From assembly GCA_018818595.1 (NCBI GenBank), contig JAHIRM010000036.1, positions 1 to 64,000 of the forward strand: 64,000 bases of DNA, given 5' to 3'. The notes under the pieces are model-generated. The model was not told the origin of the DNA, did no database searches, and saw nothing but the letters and a program-made list of their open reading frames with translations. Positions 2,383 to 11,090 of this stretch are shown here, in pieces (the stretch's first letter is position 1; the number at the start of each line of letters is the position of its first letter). A program made the position numbers and the translations under genes. This stretch comes from Bacillota bacterium (GTDB lineage: Bacteria; Bacillota_I; Bacilli_A; Izemoplasmatales; Hujiaoplasmataceae).

Positions 2383-3202
2383 TAAAATCATCTCCTAGTT
2401 GATTGATATATTGATTCATTATTTCTGATATTCCATCAAGATCATTGGATAAAGTAATAACGTCCGCAATTTCTTTTACGAAAGGTTTTGCATTCCCCAT
2501 CGCAACACTGATTCCAGAAGCTTTTAAAAGTGATATGTCGTTTTCTTCATCTCCAAAAGCCATCGTTTCTGATTTGTCTAGTTTTAATAAAACAAGCAAT
2601 TTCTTGAGTGCATCGCCTTTTGAACCTTTTAAATGTACAAATTCTAACAATTGATTTGAGCTTTTAAAGATATTGTATTGATCATACCAACTGTTTTCAA
2701 TTGTTCCTTTAAACGTATTTAAGATCTTCTCTTCATCATATAACAACACTTTATAAACTGCTTCGTTTTCATCATAAAGATTCATATCAATCTTAACTAC
2801 TGTTTTTTCATAAGCAGTATTATCTAAAAGTAATAATTTAATATCGTTAGAGATATAAACAAAGTGTTCACAGAAAACATGCATTTTCAAATTTGCAGGT
2901 AATACAAGAGAACTTATCTTTTTTACATCTTCTTTGTCCATTAATTTTTTGTCAATGATTTCAAAAGGAAATACTTTCAAAGTAAGAACGCCATTATAAG
3001 CAATAAAGTACGCTCTGTCATATTCGAACAAATCCAAAGGCTGAATGATTTTAGTGATTTCATGATAGGTTCTACCTGAAGCTATCACGATGTATACATG
3101 ATGTTTTTTTAAAAGTTGTATGGTTTCAATTGTTTTAATAGATATTTTACCTTGAGAATTTAAAAGAGTTCCATCTAAGTCAACCGCTACTAATTTTATC
3201 AT
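2372..3202 (-). CDS. HAD-superfamily Cof-type sugar-phosphate phosphatase
   Basis: 276 residues from the ATG at 3202. HAD motif I is VDLDGTLLN near the N-terminus, motif II is IASGRTYHE, and motif IV is FGDEENDISLLKASG followed by GISVAMGNA. This is the Cof/YidA (type IIB cap) arrangement. Such enzymes hydrolyse phosphorylated sugars, FMN or PLP with Mg2+; the substrate cannot be read from sequence. An in-frame TTG at 3220 would add six residues, but the ATG places the DLDGT motif at the usual distance from the start. No convincing ribosome site is seen for either. The stop (TGA) overlaps the PAP2 start, so the two are probably co-translated. Confidence 0.85.
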   Translation of the reverse strand: MIKLVAVDLDGTLLNSQGKISIKTIETIQLLKKHHVYIVIASGRTYHEITKIIQPLDLFEYDRAYFIAYNGVLTLKVFPFEIIDKKLMDKEDVKKISSLVLPANLKMHVFCEHFVYISNDIKLLLLDNTAYEKTVVKIDMNLYDENEAVYKVLLYDEEKILNTFKGTIENSWYDQYNIFKSSNQLLEFVHLKGSKGDALKKLLVLLKLDKSETMAFGDEENDISLLKASGISVAMGNAKPFVKEIADVITLSNDLDGISEIMNQYINQLGDDFNGI

Positions 3203-3261
3203 ATATTCTTGTATAATCAAAACGTCTTTATAAGATGGTTTGATTATTCCCTTCTTTGTGG

Positions 3262-4089
3262 TTAGTCTTCTGGATGCATTTTTTTAAATTCGGTGAGTTG
3301 ATTTGAAATAAGCAATTCAATTCGCTTTGTGATTTCTAATGTGTCTAAATTTTCATATTCTTCAAATGGAATTCTTGGCAAAATATGACAATATCCTTTG
3401 TGGATTTTAATTCTGCCTTTTTTAAAGATTCCATGCATATTATATAAGCAAATCGGACAAATATCCGCTTTAGCTTTCGTAGCTAGTTTCAAAGATCCGG
3501 CTTTAAACGGTGCAATTTCATTTTTATAGGAACGTGTTCCTTCTGGAAATATTCCCATTGGTTGTCCGTTCTTAACGGATTGAATGGCTAAAAGAATGGA
3601 TTGCATTGCTTGTCGGTTGTCTCCTCTGTAAATAGGAATACATCCAGAACTTTTCAAAAGTCTTCTTACAATAGGTACTTTAAATAACGATTCTTTTGAA
3701 ACATATGAAATAGGATAATCGTTAAATACTTGTTTGACATAAATTGGATCTGTATACTCAATGTGATTGGACACGACGACAAAATGATTGTTACTAGGTA
3801 AATTTTCTTTTCCAGAAACTACAATTTTAACTCTTAACAACACATTAAAGATATAAAAACCAATTGTATTGAAAAGCTGATGTTTAAAAAGATTTTTAGG
3901 GTCTGTTTTTGTAAAGAAAAATAAAACAGTAACAAAAAAAAGGAATAATAGGATTATAAATGCAATCATTGCTAAAAGAAATACGCCTATGATGGTTAAA
4001 ATTCCAGTGAAGTTTAATTCATATGTCCCAAAAATCAGAAAAAGGATGGTAAAAAGAACGCTTAACAAAACTTGCAAAAACAAGATCAT
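3262..4089 (-). CDS. plsC: 1-acyl-sn-glycerol-3-phosphate acyltransferase
   Basis: 275 residues. It starts with two hydrophobic helices (about 1-60), followed by the acyltransferase domain: VVVSNHIEYTDPIYV (the NHX4D catalytic motif) and GIFPEGTRSYKNE (the EGTR phosphate-binding motif). It would convert lysophosphatidic acid to phosphatidic acid at the inner face of the membrane. The ATG at 4089 has AGAGG at a suitable distance; the ATG at 4107 overlaps that site. Because the ribosome site lies inside the end of folA, translation of the two is probably coupled. The next genes, a HAD and a PAP2 phosphatase, would suit a phospholipid operon. Confidence 0.9.
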   Translation of the reverse strand: MILFLQVLLSVLFTILFLIFGTYELNFTGILTIIGVFLLAMIAFIILLFLFFVTVLFFFTKTDPKNLFKHQLFNTIGFYIFNVLLRVKIVVSGKENLPSNNHFVVVSNHIEYTDPIYVKQVFNDYPISYVSKESLFKVPIVRRLLKSSGCIPIYRGDNRQAMQSILLAIQSVKNGQPMGIFPEGTRSYKNEIAPFKAGSLKLATKAKADICPICLYNMHGIFKKGRIKIHKGYCHILPRIPFEEYENLDTLEITKRIELLISNQLTEFKKMHPED

Positions 4090-7565: not shown

Positions 7566-9104
<1,539 letters not shown>

Positions 9105-9154
9105 TTAATGATATAATTGACACAATAGATTAAGTAAAGTTAAGGAGTGAAATA

Positions 9155-10075
9155 ATGCGTAAGGTCATTTTAAAGGATTCAAAGGAAAATCAAATTCATG
9201 TATATCTTTATGAACCAAAAATTGAAATAATCGGCATTGTGCATATTATTCATGGTGCAAGTGAGCACTTCGCAAGATACGGGTTGTTCGCAGAATTTTT
9301 AAACGAACATGGCTTTCTTGTTATAGGATGTGATATCTTAGGTCATGGACTTTCTACATCTACAAATGATTATGTTCACTTTGCAGATAAAAAAGGCGAT
9401 TTATTGGCCTTTGAATCTGTTGAATTAGTAAAAGACTACATTGAAACTCATTACCCGAAAAAAGATGTTTATATATTAGGACATAGTATGGGTTCCTTTT
9501 TAGCAAGAAAAATGATTATCTTGTATCCTGATTTTTATAAAAAAGCGATTATTTCAGGAACAACACATGCTTCGAAAGGATTAACTTTTTTCGGAATTGC
9601 TTTAACTTCAATCTTTCAATGTTTTAAAGGTCCACGACATATATCTAAAACCATTCAAAATTTAGCAATTGATTCAAATCCAAATAAAATGAGAAAAGAC
9701 GGTTTGATTCATGGAATTAATGAAGAATGGCTCACAAAAGATGAAGCCATTCAACAATATTATCATGCTTCGCCCATGTGTGGACAACCTTTTACCGTCA
9801 GTGCTAATCGGAATTTATTTCGATGGTTAAATTTTGTAAATGACAAAAAGAATTTAATGAAGGGCAATATGAAACAACCGATTCTCTTAATATCGGGAGC
9901 AAAAGATCCTTTAAGTAATTATGGAGAGAGAGTTGTATATCTCTATCATTTAATGAAACGTCTTGGGTATGAATCCATCGAATATAAACTATATAATGAA
10001 GATCGTCATGAAATCTTAAATGAATTAGATAAAGCCGTTGTATATCAAGATATTTTGGAATTTTTAGAAAAATAA
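9155..10075 (+). CDS. Alpha/beta hydrolase, monoacylglycerol lipase-like
   Basis: 306 residues of the alpha/beta hydrolase fold. HIIHGASEHFARYGLFAEFL is the oxyanion-hole region, GCDILGHGLS follows, and LGHSMGSFLARK holds the nucleophile Ser (G-H-S-M-G). ISGAKDPLSNYGE and the His in EDRHEILNE complete the Asp-His part of the triad. The arrangement is that of monoacylglycerol lipase/lysophospholipase proteins (serine aminopeptidase S33-like domain). There is no signal peptide. AAGGAG precedes the ATG and TATAAT lies at 9112-9117. Divergent from glpK: released glycerol could feed that kinase, but this is inference from adjacency only. Confidence 0.88.
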   Translation: MRKVILKDSKENQIHVYLYEPKIEIIGIVHIIHGASEHFARYGLFAEFLNEHGFLVIGCDILGHGLSTSTNDYVHFADKKGDLLAFESVELVKDYIETHYPKKDVYILGHSMGSFLARKMIILYPDFYKKAIISGTTHASKGLTFFGIALTSIFQCFKGPRHISKTIQNLAIDSNPNKMRKDGLIHGINEEWLTKDEAIQQYYHASPMCGQPFTVSANRNLFRWLNFVNDKKNLMKGNMKQPILLISGAKDPLSNYGERVVYLYHLMKRLGYESIEYKLYNEDRHEILNELDKAVVYQDILEFLEK

Positions 10076-10088
10076 TTCTTTTTTACCA

Positions 10089-10139
10089 ATAAAACCTCCT
10101 ATCCTTTACGTATATTTAGTAGAAATTAGGAGGTTTTAT
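10089..10139 (+). promoter_or_regulatory. 13-bp inverted repeat covering the ribosome site of the next gene
   Basis: A perfect inverted repeat (10089-10101 with 10127-10139, 25-base loop) has the AGGAGGT ribosome site of the lipoprotein gene in its right arm. In a transcript that contains both arms the site would be paired. There is no T-run after it, so it is not a normal terminator. It could also be a protein-binding site. Confidence 0.65.
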
Positions 10140-10142
10140 AAA

Positions 10143-11090
10143 ATGAAAAAGAAAATATTATTCCCAATCTTACTATTATTTGGATTGCTATCAGTTTTTT
10201 TAATCGGTTGCAATGCAACTGATGAATATTCTTATGTAACAGTAGATATTAACCCAAGCATCGATTTTGTGGTCAATGGAAACAACGTTGTTGAAAGTGT
10301 TTCGGCTCTTAACCAAGATGGTGAAATTCTTCTCTTAAACTTAAGTTTACAAAACAAGAACGTTGACGTAGCTATTGAAGAAGTATTAGATGAAGCTATT
10401 GACTTAGGATTCATTGATGTTAACGCAGATGAAACAATTGTTGAGGTTAGTTCTACTTCTACACAAATGCAAAACAGATTTCAAGAAAGAATCAATGAAC
10501 TTTTCCAAGAAAAAGCAATGTTTGGTAGAGCAATCGCCAAACAAAACACTGATTTAGTAACAGAAGCTACTGAATTAGATGTTGAAGTTGGTTATTTAAG
10601 ATTAGTATATCGCGCATTAGATGCAGAAGATACTTTATTAAAAGAAGATGCTCTTTTACTAACCAATCAAGAATTGATTCAAGTAATAAAAGATAACAAT
10701 GAAGAAATGAATAAAGTTTGTGTCGAACAACAAACAGCTTTTTATGCAGACAGACAAGTAATTCTTGACGAGTATTTACCTCAAATTGAAGCTTTAGAAA
10801 CTGAAATCGCTGCACTAGTTGCAAGCGATGAAGATACTTCAGTTAAACAAGCTGAACTTGACGCTTTACTAGCTACAATGCATGATTTACTTTCTACACT
10901 TCGTAATACTTACTATACTGAAGGAGCTGCAATTCGTGCAACATTTGAAGTTCAAAATCAAAACAAAATTGATGAGAATTTTGCAGCAGTAAATCAATTT
11001 CGTCAAGCACTTCAAACTAGAACTCAAACAATGAGTGACTCAATCAAAGAATATCAAGAAACAGGAATTTTACCAACCGATAAGCAATAA
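10143..11090 (+). CDS. Lipoprotein with RsgI-type extracytoplasmic domain
   Basis: 315 residues. A lipoprotein signal peptide ends in LIGC with Cys at about residue 23. Residues about 30-110 read VTVDINPSIDF, VVESVSALNQDGEILLL and AIEEVLDEAIDLGFI, matching the outer (middle) domain of RsgI-type anti-sigma factors. The cytoplasmic anti-sigma segment and the membrane helix of true RsgI proteins are absent. The remainder (about 115-305) is helical and rich in Glu/Gln, probably coiled coil. It is likely anchored on the outer face of the membrane. No sigma factor gene is nearby, so a signalling role is unproven. The ribosome site lies inside a hairpin. Confidence 0.7.
   Translation: MKKKILFPILLLFGLLSVFLIGCNATDEYSYVTVDINPSIDFVVNGNNVVESVSALNQDGEILLLNLSLQNKNVDVAIEEVLDEAIDLGFIDVNADETIVEVSSTSTQMQNRFQERINELFQEKAMFGRAIAKQNTDLVTEATELDVEVGYLRLVYRALDAEDTLLKEDALLLTNQELIQVIKDNNEEMNKVCVEQQTAFYADRQVILDEYLPQIEALETEIAALVASDEDTSVKQAELDALLATMHDLLSTLRNTYYTEGAAIRATFEVQNQNKIDENFAAVNQFRQALQTRTQTMSDSIKEYQETGILPTDKQ

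Follow-up and report, generated by a model that had tools for sequence, protein, structure and literature searches.

Occlusion of the ribosome-binding site (RBS) guards the transposase gene of IS10/Tn10 against outside transcription, which is referred to as fold-back inhibition; to our knowledge, this mobile element has no alternative-sigma promoter in the loop. In the literature examined, the term was not found for IS10. Genes e (lysozyme), soc, 49 and I-TevI of phage T4 are described as genes whose RBS is hidden in read-through RNA and whose late promoter is located inside the structure, and related phages with similar leaders are also described there (PMC3014915, PMC2988022). For sigG (spoIIIG) of Bacillus subtilis, a large hairpin has been proposed that blocks the translation of spoIIGA-sigE read-through RNA and that cannot form in RNA from sigG’s own promoter (PMC5942855).

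The locus considered here belongs to the window, i.e., the whole analysed stretch of 64,000 nucleotides, from a draft genome of 1.87 Mb in 60 contigs; those of its relatives that bear names are labelled as Acholeplasmataceae or Bacilli MAGs. The gene of an alpha/beta hydrolase of 306 aa (9155–10075, forward strand; Hydrolase_4, E 5.2e-34) is followed on the same strand by the gene of a lipoprotein of 315 aa (10143–11090), containing an RsgI_M domain (residues 29–153, E 1.7e-23). The stop codon of the hydrolase gene lies only 13 nt before the left arm of a hairpin, and therefore there is no room for a separate terminator between the two genes. A site resembling a sigma-A-type promoter, TTTAAA-16-TATAAT with TG (9090–9117, forward strand), precedes the hydrolase gene as a consensus match only (10/12), the count of such sites in the region not exceeding that in shuffled sequences; it is a possible origin of read-through RNA.

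The original prediction had placed a perfect 13-bp inverted repeat over the Shine–Dalgarno sequence (SD) of the RsgI_M lipoprotein gene, and a repeat search confirmed it with exact coordinates. The single inverted repeat found in 9900–10400 has arms of 13 nt, 100% complementary and 25 nt apart, and consists of a left, anti-SD arm (10089–10101), a loop (10102–10126) and a right arm (10127–10139), all on the forward strand. The right arm, also recovered in the predicted fold, includes the SD AGGAGG (10128–10133), separated by nine bases from the ATG at 10143. The predicted fold of RNA 10076–10180 has an energy of -27.8 kcal/mol vs a mean of -10.86 for shuffled sequences (z -6.49), and none of the 200 shuffles was as stable. 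A weaker outer helix, U-rich on one side and A-rich on the other, is seen in the predicted fold only; its 5' strand (10076–10085, forward strand) pairs with 10144–10153, and it includes two start-codon bases and the next codons. The SD-covering 13-bp repeat far exceeds chance.

The location of the SD within a stem is also what an RNA thermosensor, opening at growth temperature, would show, and the original prediction had named this alternative together with a check, the folding of the leader at several temperatures. However, the SD of read-through RNA stays shut in the predictions, with an opening of 0.0001 at 37 °C and 0.0026 (0.26%) at 75 °C, and RNA from the gene’s own promoter should be without the left arm; a thermosensor is exceedingly improbable.

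The ECF-type promoter of the lipoprotein gene was recognized by a motif common to the upstream regions of its orthologs, namely, CCAATAA and CGTATA with 15–16 nt between them. The -35 element, CCAATAA, occupies 10086–10092 and is overlapped, together with the spacer, by the left arm; the -10 element, CGTATA, is located within the hairpin loop, at 10109–10114 (both on the forward strand). In the own genome, CCAATAA-N14-17-CGTATA gave six matches vs none for the reversed control, and the motif was found in 32 of the 34 genomes of the family. At 113 distinct motif places, gathered from fetched loci, the spacing is 15 nt in 95 cases, 16 in 14, 17 in three and 14 in one. A gene of an ECF sigma factor, identified by a short signature, is next downstream at 23 of these places, and a 24th candidate, one residue off the signature, is found behind the motif in locus L060. 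Genes of lipoproteins or secreted-type proteins, with N-termini labelled by eye, are located downstream of many others. The ECF sigma gene behind the motif in the own genome is on contig C13 and encodes Sigma70_r2 and r4. Two elements at a fixed spacing are present both before the sigma gene itself and before the regulon, as for ECF promoters, and the distribution of the motif looks like that of an autoregulated ECF regulon. On contig C2, another ECF sigma gene, accompanied by an RsgI_M-type anti-sigma factor, lies behind the variant CCAACAA ... TGTTTA; either of the two sigma factors, C13 or C2, could serve the promoter of the window gene. Among the papers listed in a literature search, none dealt with an ECF promoter of the CCAATAA/CGTATA kind in Acholeplasma-like bacteria.

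Each of the two ECF sigma genes of the own genome (L043:4698–6111 on C2 and L044:4018–7073 on C13) is followed by a likely anti-sigma gene, and their promoter motifs are alike, not identical. The window lipoprotein (10143–11090) matches the C2 anti-sigma factor (L043:5230–6111) at 26% over 134 aa, and the lipoprotein of locus L125 (3634–4653) matches the product of the gene located after the sigma gene of this locus (2516–3565) at 32% over 134 aa. The lipoproteins of the regulon resemble the outer part of anti-sigma factors; acting as soluble versions of this sensor domain, they could exert feedback on the sigma factor and its anti-sigma partner.

The hairpin is likely to act as a fold-back insulator. 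In this mechanism, the DNA at and between the -35 and -10 elements would double as the code for the anti-SD arm. Read-through RNA from the hydrolase gene would contain the left arm and form the 13-bp stem over the SD, with the outer helix over part of the AUG, and when folded in this way would give little lipoprotein. RNA synthesized by the ECF holoenzyme would start in the loop, at about 10116–10124, because of the position of the -10 element, and would be without the left arm, because this arm overlies the -35 element and the spacer; such RNA would be translatable. Only hydrolase read-through RNA would fold, since only this RNA has both arms, and the output of lipoprotein would follow mainly the activity of the ECF sigma factor. 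What the sequences show directly is the repeat, the location of a promoter motif that is family-wide, pairing that covaries, and recurrence at a second gene; the start in the loop, the existence of read-through and the strength of the translational block we infer. The earlier proposal that read-through RNA would be silenced, and RNA started in the loop would not, gains support from the position of the ECF-type promoter and from compensating changes in relatives, while its mechanism is putative.

In the window gene, read-through RNA has a predicted SD opening of 0.0001, vs 0.23–0.87 for loop-started RNA, where the value varies with the start point and length assumed. Counting against the insulator, loop-started RNA of locus L138 with at least 60 nt of coding sequence has a predicted SD opening of 0.00–0.01, the SD of the longer RNA pairing with its own coding region. 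Longer RNA lowers the predicted SD opening generally over 77 promoters (median 0.34 vs 0.51), and at L084 and L049, where the upstream genes are divergent, it also falls, to 0.00 and 0.04, respectively. SD opening was dropped as a general discriminator, as it is not specific across the 77 promoters, and the argument rests on perfect stems and covariation rather than on it.

Sixteen orthologs of the lipoprotein gene were included in the stem test, from which L011, cut by a contig end, and more distant relatives were left out; the hydrolase gene was searched for in 19 loci, three of which are repeats. One sequence region is covered by both L003 and L033, and each of the sets L004/L047/L138, L005/L048/L139 and L125/L140/L166 represents a single place. 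The promoter, in a relaxed form, is present in all 16 orthologs. The hydrolase gene is found upstream in four of them, namely, in the own genome, G007, G015 and G022; for L010, the search covered only 578 nt upstream, and its absence there is provisional. Perfect stems of 13, 11 and 12 bp are present in three of the four hydrolase-preceded orthologs, and the stem is no longer than 5 bp in the other twelve, in which no hydrolase gene was found upstream. In G022, the hydrolase gene and the promoter are kept, and there is no stem; CCTCC is absent from the spacer.

Compensating changes in relatives, the comparison suggested by the original prediction, were found at three pair positions beside the CCTCC/GGAGG core, altered on both sides among the three orthologs: A-U, C-G and U-A at position -1, A-U, A-U and U-A at -2, and A-U, U-A and U-A at +2. 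These changes indicate that the pairing is kept by selection; the absence of the stem from G022 counts against the insulator. The same comparison bears on the reading of the palindrome as an operator bound by a repressor, likewise raised in the original prediction, to which the perfect two-fold symmetry about the -10 region would correspond. The arms of the orthologs, however, diverge in sequence with complementarity kept, which is unexpected for a protein operator, and no second copy of the arm pair is present in the own genome, so that an operator is highly improbable.

A perfect 15-bp stem in the same register, with a loop of 24 nt, was found in genome G013 (genus g6; L125/L140) before a different lipoprotein gene, which sits behind a sigma/anti-sigma-like pair. 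Its product shows no similarity to the window lipoprotein beyond a signal-peptide match and is related, at 32% identity, to the lipoprotein encoded after the sigma operon of C13. Since the two proteins are unrelated beyond the signal peptide, the spacer-SD device most likely arose at least twice in this bacterial family. We lean slightly towards repeated recruitment of the -35/-10 spacer of ECF promoters as an anti-SD arm, with at least two origins and possibly with weaker versions as intermediates; the stems of L126 and L082, which have 8–9 bp including a single G-U, could represent such intermediate steps. If this is true, a built-in translational insulator lets stress-regulated lipoprotein genes directly follow other expressed genes, with no space left for a terminator, and remain unexpressed as long as the ECF sigma factor is inactive.

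For the statistics over motif promoters, 77 of the 113 motif places were used, at which a start codon with an SD is no more than 60 nt away, and 36 were dropped, either because no SD-bearing start was found or because the start was less than 12 or more than 60 nt from the -10 element. Spacer-SD stems scoring at least 26 were found in 4 of the 77 promoters vs 0.09 expected when each spacer is matched with SDs from elsewhere in the set, the CCTCC spacers being included in this null. At a score of at least 22, the permutation p for a count as high as observed is 1.5e-4. The strong stems, scoring at least 26, are present in 4 of 14 promoters with a codirectional stop 0–20 nt before the -35 element, a limit set after the data were seen, and in none of the 63 others (Fisher p 7e-4); these p values are generous, as the three orthologs are not independent. 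In the four strong-stem cases, the upstream stop is located 6–13 nt before the -35 element. Over all promoters, the stem score showed no significant relation to a codirectional gene within 60 nt (Mann–Whitney p 0.47). Of the 14 promoters whose codirectional neighbour is close, ten, among them L126 and L082, are without a long stem, which counts against the insulator; among ECF-motif promoters with a close upstream gene, the hairpin is optional.

Perfect SD-covering stems of at least 8 bp were found in the 80 nt upstream of 4 of 74 ECF-motif genes and of none of 265 others, a set of 339 distinct genes (SD and ORF of at least 100 aa, from the window and the fetched loci) drawn largely around motif hits and not a genome-wide census; shuffled upstream DNA gave 0.2 such stems per 339 genes. 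A spacer that matches the SD merely by chance would agree with the small share of promoters that show a strong stem, and with G022, where there is none. Against it are the expectation of 0.09 from mismatched pairings, the lack of such stems in motif-less genes and the compensating changes in the orthologs, and we find chance scarcely credible.

In the ECF-motif gene L112 (G012:C241, motif at 1628), an AAATTCC/GGAATTT inverted repeat is located beside the SD and would persist in RNA from the gene’s own promoter; its spacer also contains a 9-bp match with one G-U.

Outside the family, the promoter-in-loop layout appears to be rare. The pattern ACCTCCT..CGTA..AGGAGGT was found in 5 of 392 genomes of the phylum draw, including the own genome, and the genomes listed belong to its own family, order or class. 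The loop of G308 (L149) holds CGTATA, with no clear -35 element seen. Within the order, CCTCC is present in the spacer in 5 of 90 genomes, the fifth of which (G001) pairs only 5 bp.

Across the class, hairpins of the ACCTCCT...AGGAGGT type before ATG (L141–L170) were found in 54 of 395 genomes, the control giving few matches, and several of them start just past the upstream gene and are followed by a T-run. They were not counted as instances of the window layout, because several look like a terminator that overlaps an RBS or like a palindrome separating two divergent genes. An SD-covering hairpin with a T-run is located before genes of proteins of 210–211 aa in three genera (L164, G000:C2:34318–34366; L163, G007:C252; L167, G009:C4) and looks like a terminator overlapping the ribosome site.

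The T-run after many class-wide SD hairpins agrees with another reading of the window hairpin, mainly as the intrinsic terminator of the hydrolase gene, with the SD located by chance in its 3' arm and read-through blocked at RNA synthesis; an A-tract, a GC core and a T-tract are present here in this order (AAAACCTCC...GGAGGTTTT). The loop, however, is 24–25 nt in all four strong-stem cases, a scan with loops of 3–8 nt does not report the hairpin, and L139 has AATATTTT instead of the T-run beside the GC core, with SD pairing intact. A compact stem-loop with a free U-run was not found, the U-run being largely within the right arm. We regard a terminator as unlikely. The 13 nt between the hydrolase stop and the left arm would fit translational coupling, in which the ribosome ending the hydrolase gene opens the stem, so that lipoprotein synthesis keeps pace with that of the hydrolase. 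The leading edge of this ribosome, given the usual footprint size, would reach only about 10088, leaving the CCTCC core at 10095–10099 uncovered, and coupling would make a dedicated ECF promoter in the loop superfluous, which renders it very unlikely.

The insulator would represent a chromosomal alternative-sigma instance of RBS-hiding control of read-through, with comparative evidence from compensating changes and a probable second origin, in which a freely varying promoter spacer can bear a second, RNA-level function. Operon predictions and RNA-seq coverage of such gene pairs would overstate the expression of the downstream gene. The family-wide ECF motif is also supplied for lineages with sparse regulatory annotation.

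The window hairpin has the sequence-level features of the T4 gene e and B. subtilis sigG type: an SD-hiding stem in the upstream RNA, by sequence and predicted fold; an own promoter motif placed so that its RNA would lack the stem’s 5' strand; and a codirectional upstream gene, with no space for a terminator of its own. As in T4 gene e, the long upstream RNA hides the SD and AUG in a helix, and RNA initiated at a promoter of another sigma factor does not include the 5' half of this helix, the start at our locus being predicted from the motif. The two differ in that a phage late sigma factor and the timing of lysis or of a homing endonuclease are involved in T4, whereas here a bacterial chromosomal gene has an ECF-type promoter and is not known to be timed in such a way. 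The similarity to IS10/Tn10 is that the element shields its own gene from outside transcription by RBS occlusion. With B. subtilis sigG, the locus shares a chromosomal gene behind another gene and an alternative-sigma promoter. Unlike here, in sigG, sporulation sigma factors are reported to be involved, the hairpin has at least 20 pairs and a small RBS hairpin is left in the short RNA. The stem described here is 11–15 bp, its arm lies over the ECF -35 element and spacer, its pairs covary among orthologs, and the device most likely arose a second time.
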